Assembly (NCBI GenBank): GCA_937995515.1
Contig: CALKJZ010000008.1
Coordinates: 1-64,000, forward strand
Direction of reading: 5' to 3'
Length of the DNA stretch: 64,000 nucleotides
Source: an uncultured Sphingomonadaceae bacterium
GTDB taxonomy: Bacteria > Pseudomonadota > Alphaproteobacteria > Sphingomonadales > Sphingomonadaceae
Under the pieces are notes generated by a model. It saw nothing but the letters and a program-made list of their open reading frames with translations, was not told the origin of the DNA and searched no databases. The first letter of the stretch is position 1. Every line of letters begins with the position of its first letter. This document shows, in pieces, positions 13,984 through 24,281 of the stretch. The position numbers and the translations under genes were made by a program.

Positions 13984-15552
13984 TCAGAGGCCGAGCGCGC
14001 CGGGGTTCAGGATCCCGTCCGGATCGAGCGTGGCCTTGATGGCCCTGACAAGGCGCACCGAGGCGGCATCGCGCGAGGCAAGCCACGGATAGACCCGGCC
14101 GACCTGGAAGTGGGCGGCGCCATGGGCTTCCATCAGCGCAATGATGTCGCCCTTCATGCGCATCGCCTCCGCGCGCGCGGCCGGGTTGGCGGGAAAGCTC
14201 GCAAGCGTCTTCAGATGGTCGGCCGGAACAACCCGCTCGTGGTAGATGGAGCGCGCATCCGGCCAGTAGAAGGTCGGCTCATAGACAAAGCCATTGGGCC
14301 CGACGGCCATGAACATGCGGCCTGCCACGATCTCATGGGCCTCCATGGTCGCGCGGTTTGCCTCGAAATAGGCCTCGAGCGCGCGGTGGAAGGCGACCGC
14401 GCGGTCGTGCGCCAGAAGCGCGTGGAACGGCACCCACCGCTCGCCCTTGGGCCCCAGCGTGTTGGTGAGCGGCGCAAAGGGCATGGAGCGCACGACGGTC
14501 GGCACGGTGTTGGCGATCTCCTCTGCGCCCTGCTCCCGTGCCAGCGTGCGGATGCGCGCCGCCCGGTCCCTCGCCTCGGCAGGCGACACGCCCTCGGCCA
14601 GATAGTGGACAGCAAAGGTCGCGTGCCGCAGCGCCCTGTCTCCGGCCACGGCCATCCTGGCAAGCGCCTTCACGCCGGCGCCGAGCGAGCCCTGGCCGGT
14701 GAGCACCTTGCTGGCGATCTCCGCCTTGGCCGCCGCTCCCTGCTGGCGGCCGATCTGGCCCTGCTGCAGGGTGGAGTCGAGGCCGAAATTCTCGTCATCG
14801 AGCGCCTCGACGGCGATCCGCGCCATGGCTTCGTGCATCGCCTCGAACGTGTCGAAGCTGAAGGAGAGCGCCTCGAACGCCTCGCGGCGGCGGATGAGCT
14901 TCAAGCGCACCCGCGCCTTCACCCCGAGCGCGCCGCAATCGCCGGTGAACAGGCCGGCGAGATCCGGGCCGAAATGGCGAAAGAAGGCGGTGCCGGTGGA
15001 CATGAGCTCGCCCGTGCCGGTGACGATGTCGAAGCCGACCAGGCTTTCGGCAGACACGCCCCAGATACCCGTGCCGTGCGAGACGGAGTGCTGGCTCATC
15101 GAGCCGGCAACCGTCGCCGCAAGCCCGGAGAAGGGCCCCCAGAAGGGCGTGCGCAGGCCATGGGGCATGAGCGCGTCGCGAAGCTCGGCCCAGGTGACCC
15201 CCGGCTCCACGGTCACCACCGCGTTGGCAGCATCGATGGCAATCGCCTTGAGGCGCGAGGGGTCGATGGTGATCCCGCCGGGCCGGGCGTGGGTATAGCC
15301 GTCGGTGTAGGAGGCGCCGCCCCCGCGCACCACGACCGGCGCCCGCTCGACGCGCGCCGCTGCGACCACGGCGGCCAGTTCGTCGACCGAGCCGGGGCGG
15401 ACGACTGCAACCGGCACCTCGACGCAGCGCAACACGTCGGTGGCGTGGAAGCGCCGGTCCTCCTCGCCGGTCAGCACATGCTCGGCGCCCACGATCGCCG
15501 ACAGGCGCTCGAGAAGGCATGCGGCCCCCTCTTGTCTTGCAGCCGTTGCCAT
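13984..15552 (-). CDS. FAD-linked oxidoreductase of the VAO/GlcD family
   Basis: A 522-residue flavoprotein with the PCMH-type FAD-binding domain: AVVRPGSVDELAAVV, VVRGGGASYTDGY and PGVTWAELRDAL (about 50-140), then the GSMSQHSVSHGTG and FTGDCGALG segments. The C-terminus ends NPGALGL, the usual closing motif of the vanillyl-alcohol oxidase / glycolate oxidase family. Members oxidise phenols, alpha-hydroxy acids or alcohols; the substrate here is unknown. ATG 15552 has a good GGAGGG site and lies 11 bases after the small protein gene. It is the last gene of the minus-strand half of the divergent cluster. Confidence 0.82.
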   Translation of the reverse strand: MATAARQEGAACLLERLSAIVGAEHVLTGEEDRRFHATDVLRCVEVPVAVVRPGSVDELAAVVAAARVERAPVVVRGGGASYTDGYTHARPGGITIDPSRLKAIAIDAANAVVTVEPGVTWAELRDALMPHGLRTPFWGPFSGLAATVAGSMSQHSVSHGTGIWGVSAESLVGFDIVTGTGELMSTGTAFFRHFGPDLAGLFTGDCGALGVKARVRLKLIRRREAFEALSFSFDTFEAMHEAMARIAVEALDDENFGLDSTLQQGQIGRQQGAAAKAEIASKVLTGQGSLGAGVKALARMAVAGDRALRHATFAVHYLAEGVSPAEARDRAARIRTLAREQGAEEIANTVPTVVRSMPFAPLTNTLGPKGERWVPFHALLAHDRAVAFHRALEAYFEANRATMEAHEIVAGRMFMAVGPNGFVYEPTFYWPDARSIYHERVVPADHLKTLASFPANPAARAEAMRMKGDIIALMEAHGAAHFQVGRVYPWLASRDAASVRLVRAIKATLDPDGILNPGALGL

Positions 15553-15563
15553 GAAAGCCCTCC

Positions 15564-15932
15564 TCAGCCCTTAGCGATGGTCTCGATGGTCTCGCGGAAC
15601 CGGCTCTCCGTATCCCCGCGGGCGGCGTCTGCCGCGTCCTTGCGGGCAAGATAGGTGAGCCGGGCCAGAAACGCCTGGCGCCACAGCTCGCGCTCGGTCA
15701 GCACCTCGGGTGTGGGCTGATAGGCCTCGACCGCAGCACCGGCCTCGATTCCGTTCTGCTCGAGCACCCGCTCCAGGGTGTCCATCCGCTCGCGCATGGT
15801 GGCAAGCTCCGAGGCGAGCGCGAGAATCATGCTCATCGCCTGGTCGAGCCCCGGGGCCTCGTAGAATTGCGGACGCTTGCCGCGGGCATCGCGGACCGGC
15901 CGGGGCGGCAGCGAGGCGGCGGGCGCGGTCAT
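15564..15932 (-). CDS. Small methyltransferase-partner-like helical protein (copy 1)
   Basis: A 122-residue hydrophilic protein with no signal or membrane segment. Residues 35-60 form a heptad-like helix (ELATMRERMDTLERVLEQ), followed by Gly61, an AVEAYQP turn (67-73) and a second helix. No known domain was recognised. Its ATG overlaps the stop of the methyltransferase gene (ATGA). The 98-residue protein encoded at 22789-23085, also overlapping a methyltransferase gene, shares the pattern ELxxxRxRxxxLExVLExxG and a following QP. The pairing suggests an accessory subunit or regulator of the methyltransferase; this is inference. Confidence 0.7.
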   Translation of the reverse strand: MTAPAASLPPRPVRDARGKRPQFYEAPGLDQAMSMILALASELATMRERMDTLERVLEQNGIEAGAAVEAYQPTPEVLTERELWRQAFLARLTYLARKDAADAARGDTESRFRETIETIAKG

Positions 15933-17140
15933 TCCGGCTTCCTTGCGACCAGGATTTCCCAGCCGCCGCCCGGCGCATATTCGCCCGCTGCAAACTCCCG
16001 CTCGGCAACGGCTGCGGCACTGGCATATTCCTCGGCGGCCGCGGCAAACTCCATCACCGCCATCGGCGCGGTATCGAAGCGCGCGTCCGGAAAGCCCGCC
16101 GCGCGCGCCAGCGCGATCTGGTCGACCTCGCGCATCGCACCCCAGAAGGGCTCGTTGTTGTACCAGGTCTCGTTGTCGAGGATGAACTGGGCAAAGGGGT
16201 CCATCCGGTCGAACGGCGGCAGGTCGGCGTGGATCATCAGGCCGCCCGGCTTCAGGATGCGGAAGCATTCGCGGAAGATGGCCGGCATCGCCTTGCCGCT
16301 CGTCTCGTGCAAAAGGATGTGGCTGACGACGAGATCGAAGTGGCTGTCGGGAAAGCCGGTTGCCTCGGCGTTGCGCTGCAGGAAGCCCACCTCGAGGCCG
16401 AGGCCGGCCGCCCGCGCATGGGCGTAGCGCACCTGCGGCGCGGCCACATCGATGCCCGTCACCTCGGCCTCGGGGAAGCCTTCCTTGTAGGGGAGCGTGG
16501 AATGGCCGACGGTGCAGCCCATGTCGAGGATGCGCCCGGGCCGGAACGCCGGCATGTTCCGCTTCAGCCAGTTGACGACCGAGCGGCCCATGTCGTCGTT
16601 GTAGGGCCCCATGTAGCCCATGGCATAGAGATAGACACCCCGGTCGTAGAGCGCGCCGGTGGAAATGTCGCCGGGCGCCACCTCGCCGGCATAGCCGCCG
16701 GGCATGCAGTGGATGTCGAGGGCGGTCACGTAGCGCGGGACCTCGAAGGCCGGGTCGGTCTCAAGCGGCGCGGCCGACCGCGCCGAAAGGGCGGCTGCGC
16801 GCGCGTTCAGGCCCTCGAGATCGCGCTCGATGGAATCGATGACGCTTTCCCACAGCAGTTCCTGGGCGATCCGGTTGATTGCGGCATAATGCTGGAAATA
16901 GAGATCGCGCACCATGCCGCGGCGGATGTCGTGCCGATCTGCGGGCGGGCGGCCATGCGCCTTCTCGAAGGCGGGCGCGACCCGCCCGCGGAAGACCGGG
17001 CCAAGCCCGGGCAGCAGGCCCTGCTGCACGAACCCCTTGAGCGACTTTGCAAACTCCTGCCGGGCTCGCTCGTCGTGGGTGGGCTTGGGCAGGACGGGAT
17101 GATCCGCCTGCTGGAAGATGTTCACCATGTCGACGCTCAT
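15929..17140 (-). CDS. Class I SAM-dependent methyltransferase with long N-terminal domain (copy 1)
   Basis: A 403-residue protein. The C-terminal half has the SAM-binding fold: motif I RILDMGCTVGHST (about 210-222), an acidic residue in VTGIDVAAPQ, FDLVVSHILLHE and the post-motif LKPGGLMIHAD. The first 200 residues are unusual and include VPRYV...HCMPGGY and the ISTGALYDRGVY segment, which resembles a matching part of the methyltransferase at 21746-22792. Substrate unknown. Its ATG overlaps the stop of the deacetylase-fold gene, and its stop overlaps the start of the small helical protein, so three genes are coupled. Confidence 0.82.
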   Translation of the reverse strand: MSVDMVNIFQQADHPVLPKPTHDERARQEFAKSLKGFVQQGLLPGLGPVFRGRVAPAFEKAHGRPPADRHDIRRGMVRDLYFQHYAAINRIAQELLWESVIDSIERDLEGLNARAAALSARSAAPLETDPAFEVPRYVTALDIHCMPGGYAGEVAPGDISTGALYDRGVYLYAMGYMGPYNDDMGRSVVNWLKRNMPAFRPGRILDMGCTVGHSTLPYKEGFPEAEVTGIDVAAPQVRYAHARAAGLGLEVGFLQRNAEATGFPDSHFDLVVSHILLHETSGKAMPAIFRECFRILKPGGLMIHADLPPFDRMDPFAQFILDNETWYNNEPFWGAMREVDQIALARAAGFPDARFDTAPMAVMEFAAAAEEYASAAAVAEREFAAGEYAPGGGWEILVARKPE

Positions 17141-18075
17141 GCCCGCTCCTCCTGCCCGCAGCGCATGGCAGCCCGGTGGTCTGCGGCTGCATCGCTTTCC
17201 ATGTACCAGCGCGCCAGTTCCTCGCGGGTCGGCCACCACACGCCCTCGAGAGACTGCGCAAACTCGAGAAACTCGCGCAAGGCCCGGATGCGGTAGGCGC
17301 GGCCCGAGACGTGCGGATGCAGGCCCACGTTCATGATCCGCGCCTGTGCGCTGCCCTCGGCGTAGAGGGTCCTCAGCTCCTCGATCAGGATGTCGCGGAA
17401 CTCCTCGCTCGTGTGGCCGCGCCGTGTGAGCAGGGTGAAATCGTTGATCTCGTTGGAATAGGGCACCGAACAGATGGTGCCGGCACGGGTTTCGATCGGG
17501 TAGGGCTGGTCGTCGTTCATGATGTCGCACCAGAAGAGGCAGCCGGCCTCGGCCAGGATGGCCGGTGTCTCGGTGGTGCCGCGCAGCGAGGAGGAGAGCC
17601 AGCCGGCCGCGTGGCGCCCGGTGTGCAGCCGGAAGGCCTCGAGCGTGCGCAGGACGACCGCGCGCTCGTCCTCCGGCCGGCCAGCGAGATCGGTCAGGAG
17701 CTCGCCCTGCTCCCAGTTGTGGGCGATGAGTTCCCAGCCGCGCTCGAGGACCGCATCGGTCATCGCGCGCCGCCGCTCGAAGGTCACGGCATTGGCCGTG
17801 CAGCTCGCCCTGATACCGAGCGAATCGAAGAGCTCGATGAGCCGCCAGATGCCCACCCGCTGGCCATATTCGCGCCAGCTGTAGTTGGGGAAATCCGGCA
17901 CCCGGCCCGGCAGCGCATCGGGCAGGATGGGCGGGCCGCCGGCATAATAGGCCCGGTCGGTCTCCTTCACGAGATCCCAGGTCTCGAGGTTGAAGGTGAG
18001 GATCAACGCGACGCGCCGACCGCCCGGCCAGGCCAGCGCCGGCCGGCGGGAGATGGGAACATAGGGATAGTGCAT
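17137..18075 (-). CDS. Polysaccharide deacetylase-fold hydrolase, PuuE/allantoinase-like
   Basis: A 312-residue cytoplasmic protein (no signal peptide) of the NodB-homology superfamily. It resembles the allantoinase PuuE and cyclic-imide hydrolase branch more than sugar deacetylases: ALILTFNLETWD near the N-terminus, AHNWEQGELL in place of the usual H-x(3)-H metal motif, and a C-terminal MNVGLHPHVSGRAYRIRALREF segment as in PuuE. Such enzymes open cyclic amide rings. A reaction on a cyclic amide or imide is therefore plausible but unproven. The stop overlaps the methyltransferase ATG and the start overlaps the stop of the upstream gene by one base. Confidence 0.75.
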   Translation of the reverse strand: MHYPYVPISRRPALAWPGGRRVALILTFNLETWDLVKETDRAYYAGGPPILPDALPGRVPDFPNYSWREYGQRVGIWRLIELFDSLGIRASCTANAVTFERRRAMTDAVLERGWELIAHNWEQGELLTDLAGRPEDERAVVLRTLEAFRLHTGRHAAGWLSSSLRGTTETPAILAEAGCLFWCDIMNDDQPYPIETRAGTICSVPYSNEINDFTLLTRRGHTSEEFRDILIEELRTLYAEGSAQARIMNVGLHPHVSGRAYRIRALREFLEFAQSLEGVWWPTREELARWYMESDAAADHRAAMRCGQEERA

Positions 18076-18872
18076 CAGAACTCGGCCAGCAGCCGGCCGA
18101 AGCCGTGTACCCGGTCGGCAATGCCGTTGGATCGCAGCGCCCACCAGTAGGTGGCGGTGTTGATGGCAACAACCGGCTTTTCCAGCCAGAACTCCGCCAT
18201 CGCCGCCACGCGGGCAAAGGCAAGATTGGTGCCACACTGGACGATGGCATCGACATCAGGCCCGTTGACCCGCTCGACGGCGCGCTTCAGCTCGGTCTCA
18301 GAGACATGGGCGATCAGCCGCGGCGACGCGCATTTCAGCCCCTCGAGCGCCACCACCTCATAGCCGCAATCCTCGAAATAGCGGCGCACCTGGGCGTCGC
18401 CCACCGGCATGTAGGGAGTGATGACGGCGATGCGGGAGACGCCGCCATAGGCCTTCAGCGCCTCGTTGACCGCCTCGCTGCCCATCACCACCTTGCGGCC
18501 CGTCCGGTCGGAAAGGCCGCGGTGCATCCGCTCCGCACCCTCCGCGCCGTCCCAGAAGGTTTCGGCCGACATGCCCATGATGAGGTCGTCGGGCTCCATC
18601 GACATGGCGACATCGACCGCCTCCATCGTGGCGGCGCGGATGTTCTCGAGCATCGCCATGAAGCTCTGGTCGTCTGTCACCCGCGTGTCGGGGATCGCGA
18701 TACGGGCGAAATGGTTGGTCACCCCCACCGGCCGCATGGCATCATACTCGGGCTGCACACTGGTGTTGGTGGAGGGCGCAACCACGGCGAACAGCTTGCG
18801 CCAGCCAAGGGAATCCCGGCTCGTGGCCGCAGGCGCCGCTGCAGGGGCGCGGTCGAGGGGCTGCATCATCAT
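18075..18872 (-). CDS. Asp/Glu racemase-superfamily protein, maleate isomerase / arylmalonate decarboxylase type
   Basis: A 265-residue protein with the family's APSTNTSVQPE substrate-carboxylate loop (32-42). Maleate isomerases and racemases use two cysteines. Here the C-terminal one is present (Cys213 in VQCGTN) but the N-terminal position reads MGMSAE (Met101-Ser102), so one catalytic cysteine is missing, as in arylmalonate decarboxylase. It could be a decarboxylase or a one-cysteine isomerase. The start could be any of three consecutive ATGs from 18872; an in-frame extension to 18974 would run through the divergent promoter and is rejected. First gene of the minus-strand operon. Confidence 0.75.
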   Translation of the reverse strand: MMMQPLDRAPAAAPAATSRDSLGWRKLFAVVAPSTNTSVQPEYDAMRPVGVTNHFARIAIPDTRVTDDQSFMAMLENIRAATMEAVDVAMSMEPDDLIMGMSAETFWDGAEGAERMHRGLSDRTGRKVVMGSEAVNEALKAYGGVSRIAVITPYMPVGDAQVRRYFEDCGYEVVALEGLKCASPRLIAHVSETELKRAVERVNGPDVDAIVQCGTNLAFARVAAMAEFWLEKPVVAINTATYWWALRSNGIADRVHGFGRLLAEF

Positions 18873-18897
18873 GCGCCAAAGCCTAGTCACCCGCAGA

Positions 18898-18940
18898 CCC
18901 TGCCGAGGCAGGGGCGGCCTCCAGTCTCCGCCAAGCGGAG
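18898..18940. promoter_or_regulatory. Divergent promoter region with two adjacent inverted repeats
   Basis: The 149-bp gap between the racemase-like and monooxygenase genes holds a 7-2-7 inverted repeat CCCTGCC-GA-GGCAGGG (18898-18913) and a 6-3-6 repeat CTCCGC-CAA-GCGGAG (18926-18940), followed by AGTTTT. TCGGCCATG also occurs twice just beyond (18946 and 18970). These are reasonable operator candidates for a shared regulator. No regulator gene lies in the cluster, and no clear -35/-10 pair was found. Confidence 0.4.
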
Positions 18941-19021
18941 AGTTTTCGGCCATGGCAGGCGCCGTCTCGGCCATGCGCGCGATGCAGCGCGCGGATGGTC
19001 ACAGCCAGGACAGCAGCACCC

Positions 19022-20263
19022 ATGGGCGCCAGTGGCAACGGAATGGAGGTCAGGGACGTCGCGCTCGCGCGCGCGGCCCCCGCCGGCGAAGCCGATGTGG
19101 TGGTGGCGGGCGCGGGGCCGGTTGGCGCGGTTGCCGCCACCGCACTTGCGCAGGCCGGCGTCGATGTGCTGCTTGTCGAGGCCGGCCAGACCTGCCACGA
19201 GGACCTGCGCGCCAGCACCTTCCATCCGCCGACCCTCGAGATGCTGCAGGCGCTCGACCTGCTCGAGCCGCTGCTCGCCCAGGGGCTGAAGGCGCCCGTC
19301 TACCAGTATCGCATCCGCGCAACCGGCGAGGTTTTGGCCTTTGACCTTTCGGAGCTGGCCGACATCACGCCCTTTCCCTTCCGCCTGCAGTGCGAGCAGT
19401 GGAAGCTGGCCCGGCTGGCGGCCGGCCGGCTCGGAGACCGGGTCCGGTTCGGGCGGCGGGTGGTCCACTTCCGGCAGGACGCGGAAGGCGTCACCGTCCA
19501 TCTCGAGGCGCCGACCGAGATCGAGGAGGTGCGCGCCAAGTTCCTCGTCGCCGCCGACGGCGCCAACAGCCTCATCCGCAAGTGGCTGGCCGTGCCGTTC
19601 GACGGCTTCACCTACCCCGAGAAATTCCTCACCCTTTCCACCGACCGGCCGCTGCAGGCGCATTTCCCCGACCTCGCCTATGTGAACTATGTCTCCGACC
19701 CGGAATGGTGGCACGTGCTCCTCAAGGTGCCGACGCTCTGGCGGGTGCTGGTGGCCGCCTCCGACGACACGCCGGATTCGGAGCTCCTTGCGGATGCCAC
19801 CAAGGAACGGGTGTTCGAGCGGCTGATCGGCGACCCCACGGTCGAGACCCGCCACCGGACGATCTACCGGGTGCACCAGCGCGTGGCGGCCCGCTTCGAT
19901 CACGGCCGCGTGCTGCTGGTGGGCGATGCCGCGCACCTCAACAACCCGCTGGGCGGGCTGGGCATGAACTCGGGCATCCACGATGCGGTAAACCTCGCCG
20001 AAAAGCTGGTTGCCGTGCTGTCCGACGGCGCGGACCGGCACGAGCTCCTGCCCCGCTTCGGCCGCCAGCGGCGCGCCGTCACCTTCAGCTTCATCCAGGA
20101 GCAGACGAAGAAGAACAAGGCGATGATCGAGGCCGACGAGGACGCCCGCCGCCCGGTGTTCGCCGAGATGGCCGAAGTGCTGAAGGATCGCGAGCGCCGC
20201 CGCGCCTACATGTACCGCCAGGCAATGTTCGCAAGCCTCGAGGAGGCAGCAGCCATTTCCTGA
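19022..20263 (+). CDS. FAD-dependent aromatic-ring-type monooxygenase
   Basis: About 413 residues with all three motifs of class A flavoprotein monooxygenases: the N-terminal ADP-binding GxGxxG (VVVAGAGPVGAVAAT, about 25-39), the middle DG motif (VAADGANSLIRKWL) and the GD motif (VLLVGDAAHLNNPLGGLGMNSGIHDAVNL). Such enzymes hydroxylate phenols and other aromatics using NAD(P)H and oxygen. The 420-residue length lacks the thioredoxin-like C-terminal domain of phenol hydroxylases. ATGs at 18995, 19022 and 19043 are all possible; none has a strong ribosome site. First gene of the plus-strand half of the divergent cluster. Confidence 0.85.
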   Translation: MGASGNGMEVRDVALARAAPAGEADVVVAGAGPVGAVAATALAQAGVDVLLVEAGQTCHEDLRASTFHPPTLEMLQALDLLEPLLAQGLKAPVYQYRIRATGEVLAFDLSELADITPFPFRLQCEQWKLARLAAGRLGDRVRFGRRVVHFRQDAEGVTVHLEAPTEIEEVRAKFLVAADGANSLIRKWLAVPFDGFTYPEKFLTLSTDRPLQAHFPDLAYVNYVSDPEWWHVLLKVPTLWRVLVAASDDTPDSELLADATKERVFERLIGDPTVETRHRTIYRVHQRVAARFDHGRVLLVGDAAHLNNPLGGLGMNSGIHDAVNLAEKLVAVLSDGADRHELLPRFGRQRRAVTFSFIQEQTKKNKAMIEADEDARRPVFAEMAEVLKDRERRRAYMYRQAMFASLEEAAAIS

Positions 20264-20363: not shown

Positions 20364-21746
20364 ATGGCCGCGACCCGCCCCGCCGGATTGACGGGAGACA
20401 GACCGGCCCTGGCGCATGAGCCAGGGGTTGCCATTCCGCTCGGCCTGCGCCTGGGCTGGTCGGCCGGGTCGGTGGGGACCGTCATCATCCTTTCGACCAC
20501 CTCGATCGTTCTCCTCTTCTTCATGACGAGCGTGCTTGGCATGAATCCGGCGCTGGCCGGCGGGCTCCTGTTCGGCGCCAAGCTGTTCGATGCAGCCGTC
20601 GCTCCGATGATGGGCCGCATTTCGGATTCCGCGGTCACGCGCTGGGGCCGGCGGCGGCCGTTCCTGTTTGTGGGCGCAATCGTCTCTGCGCTGGCCTTCC
20701 TCATCCTGTTCATGCCGCCCGCCCTGTCGGGCCTTGCGCTTTCCGCGTGGATGGTGGCCGGGCTTCTGGTGCTGGCTCTGGGCTACACGCTCTTCAACGT
20801 CCCCTATCTCGCCATGCCGGCCGAGATGACCTCCTCGCCGCAGGAACGCACGGCGCTCCTGTCGTTCCGGGTTGCCTTCGTTGCCATCGGCGGGGCGCTG
20901 GTGGGCTTTGCGCCCAAGCTGGCGGCGAGCCTCGGCGGCGACCGGCCGGCCTGGGCGGCAACGGGCGCGGTGCTCGGCGGGCTGGTGCTGGCCGCGATGC
21001 TCGTGGCCTTCGGCGCCTCGCACAGCGCCCGTGCGACCGCGCCGACACCGGGCGGAGACCGGGAGAGCCTGCTGGTGGTGCTGAGGAATCGGCCGTTCGT
21101 GATGCTGCTTCTTGCCAAGACGCTGCAGCTTGTCGGCCTTGCCGCCATGCAGGCCTCGATCCTGTTCTTCATCGTGCAGGTGCTCGCCGCCTCGGAAGGA
21201 ACGGTTGGCATCTATGTGGTCCTGACGACCGTTGCCATGCTGGGCTCGATGCCGCTCTGGGTCCGGCTGGGGCGCAGCCATTCCAAGCGCTCGCTCTTCA
21301 TTGCCGCCTGCCTCGGCTATGCGGCGGTCAAGCTGTCGTTCCTTCTGGCCGTGCCCGGCGAGCCGGACATCCTCATCCACCTGCGCGGCATCGCCGGCGG
21401 GCTTTTCACCGGCGGGGTGCTGCTGATGGGCCAGTCGATCCTGCCCGATGCGATCGACTGGGATTGCCGCCGCTCCGGGGTCCGGCGCGAGGGGCTCTAT
21501 GCGGGTGCCTACAGCCTTGTCGAGAAATCCTCGATGGCGCTCGGGCCGCTGCTTGTCGGCCTCATCCTCTCGGCCGTGGGGTTCGACCCGCAGGCGGCGA
21601 AGGCCGGAATCGTCCAGACCGACGTGGCGGTCACCGGTGTCTATCTCGGGGCCGCAGTGCTCCCGGCGCTCCTTTATGCGCTGAGCTGCGTGCCCCTGCT
21701 CTTCTACCGGCTGGACGAGCGCAAGCTTGCAGGGGAGGCTCTCTGA
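20364..21746 (+). CDS. MFS transporter, GPH (glycoside-pentoside-hexuronide) cation symporter family
   Basis: A 460-residue inner-membrane protein with about 12 hydrophobic helices. The family's signature sits after helix 2: KLFDAAVAPMMGRISDSAVTRWGRRRPF (about 71-98, read in parts), and the second half has SILPDAIDWD, typical of the GPH/MFS_2 family. GPH symporters import sugars or, in some members, other organic substrates with a cation. Here it is probably the uptake system for whatever the neighbouring flavoenzymes act on. Its stop shares one base with the following methyltransferase ATG (TGATG). Confidence 0.85.
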   Translation: MAATRPAGLTGDRPALAHEPGVAIPLGLRLGWSAGSVGTVIILSTTSIVLLFFMTSVLGMNPALAGGLLFGAKLFDAAVAPMMGRISDSAVTRWGRRRPFLFVGAIVSALAFLILFMPPALSGLALSAWMVAGLLVLALGYTLFNVPYLAMPAEMTSSPQERTALLSFRVAFVAIGGALVGFAPKLAASLGGDRPAWAATGAVLGGLVLAAMLVAFGASHSARATAPTPGGDRESLLVVLRNRPFVMLLLAKTLQLVGLAAMQASILFFIVQVLAASEGTVGIYVVLTTVAMLGSMPLWVRLGRSHSKRSLFIAACLGYAAVKLSFLLAVPGEPDILIHLRGIAGGLFTGGVLLMGQSILPDAIDWDCRRSGVRREGLYAGAYSLVEKSSMALGPLLVGLILSAVGFDPQAAKAGIVQTDVAVTGVYLGAAVLPALLYALSCVPLLFYRLDERKLAGEAL

Positions 21747-22792
21747 TGGAGTTCGTGCTGCGCCAGCGCGGTCGCGCGTCGATGGAGTTCCTCGTCGATC
21801 TCACACGCGCCGCCGCGCCGCTTGCGGCCCGGTGGAGCCGGGAACTGGCCGAGGCCGGCCTGACCGCCGAGACCCTGCCCGAGGATCTCGACGCCCGCCA
21901 CGCGGCAATCGGCGCAGCGCTCTCCGGCTCGGATTCCTTTGCGACAGCCGCGCTCGTCGGCGAGTTCGCAAGCGTCGAGCACGGCCGCTGCGCGATGGCG
22001 GCCTTCGACGAATCGCGCGATGTGCTCGCGCCCGCGCTCGCCGCACTTGAGGCAAGAGGACCGGCAACGCTCGAGGCCCGGCCCGATCTCGTGCCTCCCG
22101 CCTACTGGGACGGCGTCTGGTTCCACCGCACCACCGGCGGCTGGAACGGCCACCCCGAAATGGGGTTCATCCACGGCGAGCTGATCCACCGCCACTATGT
22201 CGCGCGCACCTTCCCGGGCGACATCTTCGCCCAGCGCGCCTCGGTGCTGGCGCTGCTGCCCCGGACGGACGTGGCCGACATCTGCGAGCTCGGCACCTCC
22301 TCGGGCCACTACACGGTCGCGCTGCAGCGCACCTTCCCGGAAGCGCGGATCACCGGCGTCGAGCTGTCGCTGCCCATGCTGCGGCAGGCGTTGCGGGTTG
22401 CCAACGAGAATGGCTGGGCGTGGCGGCTGGTGCAGGCGGCCGCGGAAGACACGGGCCTGCCCGATGCCAGCTACGATCTTGTCACCTCCTACATCCTGCT
22501 CCACGAACTGCCGGCCGAGGCCTGCCGGGCCGTCTGGCGCGAGGCCTTCCGCCTGTGCCGCCCGGGCGGGCAGGTGCTGATGTCCGACGTGACCCCCTAC
22601 CGGGTGCACGACCGCCTCGGCGCGTGGCGCGCGGACTGGCTGGCAAGGCGCGGCGGCGAGCCCTGGTGGCGGGAATCGGCCACCCTTGACCAGGCCGAGG
22701 CCGCCCGGGAAGCCGGCTTCGTCGAGGTGACCGAAGGCGGACCGGAGGGGCGGCCCTACCCGTGGGTGACGATCGGCACCCGGCCGGCATGA
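21746..22792 (+). CDS. Class I SAM-dependent methyltransferase with N-terminal domain (copy 2)
   Basis: A 348-residue protein. The SAM fold lies in the second half: ICELGTSSGHYTVAL (motif I, about 173-187), ITGVELSLPM, YDLVTSYILLHEL and CRPGGQVLMSD. Before it, a VPPAYWDGVWFHRTTGGW...FIHGELIHRHYV stretch lines up with the equivalent part of the methyltransferase at 15929-17140, and both share the wording ILLHE after motif III, so the two are probably paralogues. The first 100 residues are helical and unassigned. The start uses the TGATG junction with the transporter gene; the stop overlaps the ATG of the second small helical protein. Confidence 0.82.
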   Translation: MEFVLRQRGRASMEFLVDLTRAAAPLAARWSRELAEAGLTAETLPEDLDARHAAIGAALSGSDSFATAALVGEFASVEHGRCAMAAFDESRDVLAPALAALEARGPATLEARPDLVPPAYWDGVWFHRTTGGWNGHPEMGFIHGELIHRHYVARTFPGDIFAQRASVLALLPRTDVADICELGTSSGHYTVALQRTFPEARITGVELSLPMLRQALRVANENGWAWRLVQAAAEDTGLPDASYDLVTSYILLHELPAEACRAVWREAFRLCRPGGQVLMSDVTPYRVHDRLGAWRADWLARRGGEPWWRESATLDQAEAAREAGFVEVTEGGPEGRPYPWVTIGTRPA

Positions 22793-23085
22793 CCGCGGCA
22801 GACCTGGGCGCGGCCTCGCGCGCCGCCACGTCTGCTCCTGCGCTGCACGCGGGCCAGCTCGACCATCTGGGCAAGGCCGTTCTGCTCCTTACGCGCGAGC
22901 TGTGGGTGACCCGCGACCGGCTCGCCGTTCTCGAAGCCGTGCTGGAGGCACGCGGCCTTGCCGTTGCCGAGGCGATCCGCGACTTCCAGCCCGACGGCGC
23001 GCTTGCTGAGCGCCTCGCCGCAGAGCGCGCGGCGCTCGTGCAGGCGCTCCTTGCCACGCTCGCACCCGAGGACGGGGCGCGGTGA
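22789..23085 (+). CDS. Small methyltransferase-partner-like helical protein (copy 2)
   Basis: A 98-residue protein without signal or membrane segments. A helix at about 28-56 (RELWVTRDRLAVLEAVLE) ends at Gly56 and is followed by DFQPDG and a second alanine-rich helix. The helix pattern and spacing to QP match the small protein at 15564-15932, which likewise overlaps a methyltransferase gene by ATGA. No known domain was recognised. The stop in turn overlaps the GTG of the serine hydrolase gene. Confidence 0.7.
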   Translation: MTAADLGAASRAATSAPALHAGQLDHLGKAVLLLTRELWVTRDRLAVLEAVLEARGLAVAEAIRDFQPDGALAERLAAERAALVQALLATLAPEDGAR

Positions 23086-24281
23086 CCGGCCCGCGCGGCC
23101 TGCACGGGCTGGTCGCAGCGCTGCTCCTTGCAGCACCGGCCGGCGCCGAGCAGACACCCGGCGAGGCCGCGATCGTGATGCAGCGCATGGCGGCCCTGCC
23201 CTTCGACCGCGGCGTCGAGGCGGTCGAGGCCTATCAGCCGGCCGAGACGGTGCGCGGTGCAAGCGCACTGGTGCGGCCGCTGCCGCGCATCGCACCCGCG
23301 CGCGCCGGGCTTTCGGAGGCCGCGCTGGCCGAGGCGGTGGCGCTTGCCGAGCGCCACGAGAGCCACGCACTTCTCGTGGCGAAGAACGGCCGGCTGGTGC
23401 TCGAGCGCTACTGGAACGGCTTTTCCCGCCAGTCGCGCTTCTCGACGGCCTCGATGCACAAGACCGTGATGGCACTGGCCATGGGGGCCGCGATTGCCGA
23501 CGGCCGGCTCGCCGAGGGCGACCCGGTGGGCCGCCATCTCCCCGAGTGGCGGGACGACCCGCGCGGGCAGGTGACGCTCGCTGAGCTCCTGGAAATGGCC
23601 TCGGGCCTTGCCTTCCCCCCGGCGCCACCCGGCCCGCCCCGGCCGGACAGTGTGAACCTCCGGCTCATGTTCGCACCCGACATCCGCAAGGTGGCGCTCG
23701 AGGTGCCGCAGGCGGCGCCACCGGGCACGGTCTTTGCCTATTCCAACGTCGACTCACAGCTTGCTGGCGAGGCGCTGCAGGCCGCGCTCGGCATGCGCTA
23801 TGCCGACTATCTCTCCAGCCGCATCTGGAAGCCGATCGGCGCAGCCGATGCGGCCCTGTTCCTCGACCGCGAGGGCGGCTCGGCGCACTGGTTCTGCTGC
23901 CTGCAGGCAAGCGCGATGGACTGGCTGCGCGTGGGCGAGCTGCTGCGCAAGCGGGGCCGCGTGCGCGGCCGCCAGATCCTGCCGGCGCAATGGGTGGATG
24001 CAATGGCAAGGCCCTCGGCGCGCAACCCCAACTTTGGCCGCCAGCTCTGGCGCGGCACGCCGCACGCGCCGGTGCGGCGCTATTCGGCGTCGATCGCCAT
24101 GACGGTCCCCGCGCGCGAGCCCTTCCGCGCCGAGGATGTGCTGTTCCTCGACGGCGCCGGCGGTCAGCGGGTCTATGTGATTCCCTCGGCCGGACTGGTG
24201 ATCGTGCGCATCGGCCGCCCGGCGCCGGCGTGGGACGACAGCGAGCTGCCCAACATCCTGCTCGCCGGCCGGCTGCGCTGA
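23082..24281 (+). CDS. Secreted serine hydrolase, beta-lactamase (class C)/DD-peptidase fold
   Basis: A 399-residue protein that starts with GTG 23082 in a GTGA overlap. Residues 1-22 look like a signal peptide (GLVAALLLAAPAGA). The active-site motif SxxK is Ser124-Met-His-Lys127, and the second motif YxN is Tyr220-Ser-Asn222. This is the AmpC-like fold shared by esterases, 6-aminohexanoate-dimer hydrolase and DD-peptidases; antibiotic hydrolysis should not be assumed. As the last gene of the cluster it may hydrolyse an ester or amide substrate in the periplasm before uptake. Residues 47-53 read AVEAYQP, the same seven residues as 67-73 of the small protein at 15564-15932. Confidence 0.82.
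   Translation: MTGPRGLHGLVAALLLAAPAGAEQTPGEAAIVMQRMAALPFDRGVEAVEAYQPAETVRGASALVRPLPRIAPARAGLSEAALAEAVALAERHESHALLVAKNGRLVLERYWNGFSRQSRFSTASMHKTVMALAMGAAIADGRLAEGDPVGRHLPEWRDDPRGQVTLAELLEMASGLAFPPAPPGPPRPDSVNLRLMFAPDIRKVALEVPQAAPPGTVFAYSNVDSQLAGEALQAALGMRYADYLSSRIWKPIGAADAALFLDREGGSAHWFCCLQASAMDWLRVGELLRKRGRVRGRQILPAQWVDAMARPSARNPNFGRQLWRGTPHAPVRRYSASIAMTVPAREPFRAEDVLFLDGAGGQRVYVIPSAGLVIVRIGRPAPAWDDSELPNILLAGRLR

Follow-up and report, generated by a model that had tools for sequence, protein, structure and literature searches.

An uncharacterised family of small proteins and one family of methyltransferases (MTases) form a genetic partnership that is almost obligate and specific to cognate pairs. 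The small gene lies beside this one kind of MTase in nearly every examined genome that has either, which suggests a dedicated partner subunit. The best explanation, one I consider reasonably probable, is that the small protein would be a non-catalytic accessory subunit of a two-component SAM-dependent MTase found in (hetero)aromatic catabolic clusters; binding, the effect on activity and the substrate are what I infer here. The small family has no name or function in the family libraries, or in the part of the open-licence literature, that were searched.

The window (the whole 64,000-nucleotide stretch analysed) holds two operons pointing outward, one per strand. On the minus strand, the order is an arylmalonate decarboxylase (AMDase)/maleate isomerase superfamily protein (18075–18974; Amdase PF17645, E=2.1e-17; a start at 18872 is also possible), a PuuE-like hydrolase of the allantoinase/polysaccharide-deacetylase fold (17137–18075; 127 of 424.6 bits and thus well under the PuuE cut-off), class I SAM-dependent MTase A (P0003; 15929–17140, 403 aa), small helical partner protein A (P0001; 15564–15932, 122 aa) and a FAD_binding_4 (glycolate-oxidase-like) oxidoreductase (13984–15552; start at 15492 or 15552). 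The plus-strand operon runs from a FAD_binding_3 aromatic-type monooxygenase (19019–20263; closest solved relatives PnpA and HspB, start codon uncertain) through a GPH/MFS_2 family transporter (20364–21746, by family match), MTase B (P0004; 21746–22792, 348 aa) and small protein B (P0002; 22789–23085, 98 aa) to a beta-lactamase-fold, esterase-like serine hydrolase (23082–24281; PF00144, E=4e-35). Both small reading frames are present exactly where the preliminary description had placed them, and its claim of the same gene position on opposite strands is likewise correct: each small gene starts by an ATGA overlap on the MTase stop codon. By coordinates, six of the eight gene junctions in the two operons overlap by 1 or 4 nt, so the 4-nt ATGA overlap does not by itself set the junctions of MTase and small gene apart. 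The AMDase/maleate-isomerase-like protein carries a cysteine within a QCGTNL stretch and could be a decarboxylase, isomerase or racemase.

The two small proteins are homologous, with 36% identity over 50 aa (BLASTP E=1e-7 in a single comparison), and a search of the genome with P0001 retrieves the P0002 locus at E=7.4e-5, while the reverse search retrieves the P0001 locus at E=5.8e-5. They had been described as lacking a recognisable domain, and indeed neither has a match above the curated cut-off in Pfam or NCBIfam, nor any match at all in PHROGs; with no model claiming either protein, they do not fall into two different known families. When 41 relatives were scanned singly, a few weak matches came up, chiefly to PspB, which was the sole recurring one: TIGR02976 (PspB) was matched by 7 of the 41 at E<=0.01, with a best value of 5.5e-5. 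PspB was rejected; P0001 scores 15.1 of 25.6 bits in Pfam and 19.5 of 51.7 bits in NCBIfam, far under the curated cut-offs, with the match restricted to residues 31–60, a coiled-coil-like stretch of the long helix. Matches to Zein-binding, Ku_C, UreE_C, UreE, ESAT6_3 and a 'putative transcriptional regulator' model were scattered and weak, and these families were rejected too.

By domain score, P0003 and P0004 belong to the class I SAM-dependent methyltransferase family (Methyltransf_25, 77.3 and 67.5 bits against a cut-off of 27), with methyl transfer itself as the predicted reaction. MTase A consists of an N-terminal domain with two long helices, as judged from a relative's model, and a C-terminal Rossmann core, and the family has motifs of its own, D[IV]H[CL][MQ]PG[GS]Y and NNEPF. 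MTase B is a divergent paralogue of MTase A: in MTase B (21746–22792), and likewise at loci L069 and L070, the DIHCMPGGY of MTase A is absent and a FHRTTGGW stretch stands in its place. The latter resembles a FHYQSGG stretch of two distant relatives, and going by these motifs MTase B may be intermediate between them and MTase A.

The genome of origin (2,416,981 bases in 31 contigs, 99.86% complete) carries five small-family genes and five MTase-family genes, paired one-to-one, and the window holds two of the five pairs. Among the other three, one pair (L007) lies beside a carbon-nitrogen hydrolase and, by look, also a MFS transporter and a TonB receptor, one (L008) adjoins a relative of a FAD_binding_2 protein, and one (L009) is, by look, without such neighbours. 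A possible sixth small copy on contig 12 (E=0.4) was dismissed, as it does not match the five-copy profile at E<=1e-4 and has no MTase in the surrounding 16 kb.

Profiles built from the five small proteins and the five MTases were then used to survey 296 genomes of the order, scoring at most 15 small-protein and 6 MTase candidates per genome, the latter at E<=1e-25. The small-family profile found 112 matches in 42 of the 296 genomes, and the MTase profile 110 matches in 43, namely the same 42 and G013, a distant case, so that in this set no genome has the small family without the MTase family. An MTase lies within 600 nt of 103 of the 112 small genes, with the small gene downstream in 92 cases, upstream on the same strand in 7 and convergent in 4. 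Among the nine small genes without a scored MTase, two adjoin an MTase outside the best six candidates, two sit at contig ends, and in four genomes (G144, G122, G003 and G155) the lone small gene shares its cluster with an equally unpartnered MTase 5–15 kb away. The match at G200:2390278 was judged false, as it combines weak matches at several different places with no MTase. Seven MTases of the order are conversely without a partner: those of the four clusters just named, G002:C93 at a contig end, G013 and G014:C605. The last two are the distant MTases, which cover the core of the family profile but not its first 110–157 positions; G013 has no small gene within the 8 kb examined, while the match at G014:C605 ends ~140 nt from the contig end, which puts its downstream side outside view.

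Scanning named genomes from the MTase side gave at least 567 relatives, of which the best 80 loci were examined. These span Alpha-, Beta-, and Gammaproteobacteria, besides three MAGs whose records are labelled Myxococcota (one) and Binatota or Binatia (two). Of the 99 MTase matches in these loci, 90 lie no more than 400 nt from a small gene (downstream in 83 cases, upstream in 6, divergent in 1), and for four of the other nine (L111, L131, L135 and L136) a small gene is present at another place in the locus. The unrecognised family coupled to methyltransferases that the preliminary description had postulated is therefore seen in the genome, in the order and in the best 80 named loci alike. Among the 83 same-strand downstream pairs, 47 overlap or abut, 29 of the 47 by the 4-nt ATGA type, a count that took the start codon nearest to the MTase stop, a choice favouring overlaps. 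The family is patchy, occurring in 25 of 385 genomes at the class level and in 4 of 398 at the phylum level, with the window's own genome counted in both.

Some loci deviate from the common arrangement or carry questionable labels. In five of the best 80 (L114, L126, L127, L129 and L132), the stretch examined contains two full-length MTases but a single small gene, the second MTases being the remaining five of the nine, and here one subunit perhaps serves two enzymes. On plasmid p1 of Novosphingobium sp. ES2-1 (L157, 14732–15345), an intact small gene follows a C-terminal MTase remnant and overlaps a TonB receptor gene at its annotated end; this pair seems to be decaying. L148 comes from a record titled Klebsiella pneumoniae MAG, yet by query identity it falls among environmental gammaproteobacterial MAGs, and the contig may be misassigned.

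The pairing extends to the sequences themselves. Distance matrices of MTases and small proteins correlate with r=0.92 over 138 pairs, and still with 0.72 among MTases that are >40% different, whereas the highest of 500 permutations, run with 135 pairs, reached 0.12. In 13 of 13 sets of two to six pairs per genome or locus, the arrangement that matched each small protein with its own MTase scored best, ranking 1 of 120 in the window's genome, 1 of 24 and 1 of 6 in one set each, and 1 of 2 in ten sets. As tight linkage alone would also give matched trees, this co-inheritance shows a stable unit and not binding. In five ortholog comparisons, dN ranged from 0.09 to 0.25 and dS from 0.73 to 0.89 (dN/dS ~0.12–0.31), and by these sequence estimates both small genes are under purifying selection. 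Aligned small proteins are 21 to 79% identical to the first row of the alignment, and residues G18, R20, P21, E42, R49, D51, E54, R81 and R91 (P0001 numbering) are each kept in 34–40 of 41 sequences. In the N-terminal tail of the family, the motif A-[KR]-G-x-R-P-x-[FY] is strongly conserved. A test for one-sided conservation of the long helix was negative (moment p=0.47), so no interface stripe is visible there.

Modelled alone from 47 rows, P0001 reached a mean pLDDT of 82.8, with blocks up to 97, and a pTM of 0.55. Helices are predicted at residues 29–59, 64–70, 75–92, 94–104 and 109–121, while residues 1–28, which include the conserved tail motif, are without secondary structure. The helix-Gly-helix pattern noticed earlier in both proteins fits this model, in which the helix at 29–59 is directly followed by a glycine and then by further helices; the glycine is kept in 30 of the 38 sequences that have a residue there. 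A sequence search of the PDB with P0001 gave nothing better than E=0.16, and at the level of the fold the best Foldseek match had E=9.0 and VIA-align returned two chains only, with Z-scores of 2.6 and 2.2. At several loci the MTase and the small gene are in the same frame with a single stop between them; no natural fusion was found among the matches looked at, in which same-frame neighbours are separated by at least one stop codon. A read-through fusion of one natural pair from Caulobacter (L077) was modelled with AlphaFold from 90 rows, only 14 of them paired, and without an interface score. The fusion model has a pTM of 0.80, but the small part shows block pLDDT values of mostly 60–80, and 42 at its start, which is below the confidence for P0001 alone (a related but different protein), and its conserved tail is disordered; docking is therefore not shown by this model. 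The L077 MTase, 74% identical to P0003, has predicted helices at 18–58 and 76–116 (~41 residues each), followed by the Rossmann core. The 50 PDB matches listed for the MTase core have Z-scores of 14.0–15.1 over ~180–230 aligned residues at 10–21% identity, and the best among these are mostly small-molecule MTases. RdmB, TamK and SpnF, also fold relatives of the MTase, carry out other reactions according to their PDB titles.

The gene surroundings of the pairs were counted in the best 80 of the at least 567 MTase relatives, using tblastn at E<=1e-12 over at least 45% of the query and one or two references per family. The FAD_binding_4 oxidase is the commonest neighbour family (50 of the 80 loci), followed by the FAD_binding_3 monooxygenase (35), the DUF1838 protein (33), the PuuE-like hydrolase (31), the GPH transporter (29), MFS transporters (28), the TonB receptor (27; one of its two references was labelled by eye), the AMDase-like protein, the PEP-mutase/ICL-like protein and an aldehyde dehydrogenase (21 each), the beta-lactamase-fold hydrolase (18), isochorismatase and amine oxidase (16 each), HyuA (13) and HyuB (12). 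Most of these are families of catabolism and, judged by such annotations, the clusters look catabolic. Some of the loci combine genes of the PuuE-like, isochorismatase, maleate-isomerase-like, aconitase and PEP-mutase/ICL-like kinds, and allantoin/hydantoin-type ureides, cyclic imides and substituted maleates were therefore considered as substrates, as were nicotine-type pyridines (from the HspB-like monooxygenase). None was adopted, and among the best 80 loci no single known pathway was found to suit every cluster.

Several individual loci deserve mention. On plasmid pJE1 the pair is annotated as 'class I SAM-dependent methyltransferase' and 'hypothetical protein', near FAD oxidoreductases and HyuA/HyuB. 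This plasmid and pTomTYG65b (L155 and L156), from two different sphingomonad strains, have the same gene layout over ~16 kb with the MTase pair, which suggests cluster transfer between them. The DUF1838 protein, for example at L088:2613-3620, is exported by the look of its N-terminus. Two PuuE-like genes are adjacent in L064, L065 and L074, the last of which also has an aconitase-type gene; together with the PEP-mutase/ICL-like proteins of other loci, this gene is reminiscent of the dimethylmaleate route.

Taken as a mechanism, the small protein would be a dedicated non-catalytic subunit of the MTase, probably stoichiometric, with nearly each MTase paralogue having its own cognate small partner. 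In the predicted fold, the small chain would comprise a long helix, shorter helices and the conserved, unstructured [KR]GxRPx[FY] N-terminal tail, and it would most likely pack on the N-terminal domain of two long helices in the MTase. There it could stabilise the enzyme, or shape or close the substrate pocket, in the manner of MbtH-like proteins. As the pairs occur in catabolic-looking clusters with FAD oxidases, aromatic-type FAD monooxygenases, hydrolases of the PuuE-like and isochorismatase types, maleate-isomerase/AMDase-like enzymes, transporters, and TonB receptors, methylation probably acts on a small (hetero)aromatic compound or on its ring-opened product.

Much of the same evidence could be read in other ways. 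Were the small protein a chaperone for folding or stability that binds the MTase transiently and has no part in the working enzyme, the pairing evidence would be the same as for a subunit, a conserved tail without predicted structure would suit, and the absence of a confident docking in the AlphaFold fusion model would be in line with it. Yet co-inheritance that is cognate-specific for each paralogue pair exceeds the need of a general chaperone, and nearly every MTase paralogue keeps its own small copy, which makes a chaperone unlikely, if the least improbable of the rival readings. Hitch-hiking in the operon, where an independent small gene of other function stays linked by chance, draws on the fact that matched trees can come from linkage alone and on the four clusters in which the two genes are 5–15 kb apart; it is difficult to square with adjacency in three gene orders (92 downstream, 7 upstream, 4 convergent) and in differing surroundings, or with the presence of the MTase family in every genome that has the small family, and I regard it as highly improbable.

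The preliminary description had inferred 'an uncharacterised subunit or regulator', and of these two a subunit is favoured. A transcriptional or anti-enzyme regulator of the cluster could well be small, acidic (pI 5.3), conserved and operon-encoded, as this protein is, but the small gene tracks the MTase and not the rest of the cluster across differing gene contents, some clusters have separate GntR-type regulators, and P0001 and P0002 contain no regulator domain above cut-off (1 of 41 relatives weakly matches 'putative transcriptional regulator', E=7e-4), so this role is very unlikely. One adjacent, co-inherited protein per enzyme is also what a peptide- or protein-methylating pair would look like, with the small protein as the substrate of the MTase; conserved Lys, Arg, Glu and Asp residues are present, and two clusters (L060 and L066) have an oligopeptide-type ABC transporter. 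Against this, the PDB structures that best match the MTase core are for the most part small-molecule MTases, the genes nearby encode mainly small-molecule oxidoreductases, hydrolases and transporters, and no protease or peptide-maturation enzyme is among the commonest neighbour families, which leaves this reading with very little probability.

The favoured reading, a dedicated subunit, has parallels in known systems. MbtH-like proteins are small, conserved, encoded beside one enzyme kind and needed for its folding or activity, and the small family resembles them in being a small conserved protein paired with one adjacent enzyme kind. It differs in its partner, an MTase adjacent to most small genes of the order rather than an NRPS adenylation domain, and in its all-helical predicted fold, and the MbtH model was matched by 0 of 41 members at E<=0.01. 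Trm112 is a small non-catalytic activator of class I SAM MTases that serves several enzymes acting on RNA or protein, whereas nearly each MTase here has its own partner. A Trm112-MTase complex (6f5z) is among the fold matches of the MTase, but the fold of Trm112 differs from the all-helical one predicted for the small family, a Trm112-type model was again matched by 0 of 41 members at E<=0.01, and P0001 is without cysteine. In principle, the small family may have a mode of action similar to that of MbtH-like proteins or of Trm112, but the family models assign it to neither group. The MTase family has a Rossmann-type SAM-binding core in common with RebM, AtmM, MitM, CouO, DnrK/RdmB, and phosphoethanolamine N-methyltransferases, and differs from these class I small-molecule MTases in its own motifs, its two-helix N-terminal domain and its small partner gene. 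Apart from 6f5z, which names Trm112, none of the PDB titles among the 50 matches listed names a partner of the small-family kind.

Class I MTases are generally known as enzymes that act alone, with small protein partners described for few of them, while the MTase family described here, spread through Pseudomonadota, seems to come with its own. A bolder proposal, which I put forward as speculative and rather unlikely as a whole, is that the unnamed, near-obligate helical subunits would define a new class of two-component, cognate-paired catabolic SAM enzymes, in which methyl transfer (or another SAM-dependent reaction of the same fold) would prepare a (hetero)aromatic metabolite of plants or microbes for oxidation and opening of the ring. 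Several pairs would then act in one pathway, as may be the case for the two of the window. The pairs also draw attention to catabolic-looking clusters of Sphingomonadales and Caulobacter that are as yet uncharted. Should the MTase depend on its partner for activity, expressing it alone could yield an inactive enzyme, and a function-guided name would become available for many 'hypothetical proteins'.
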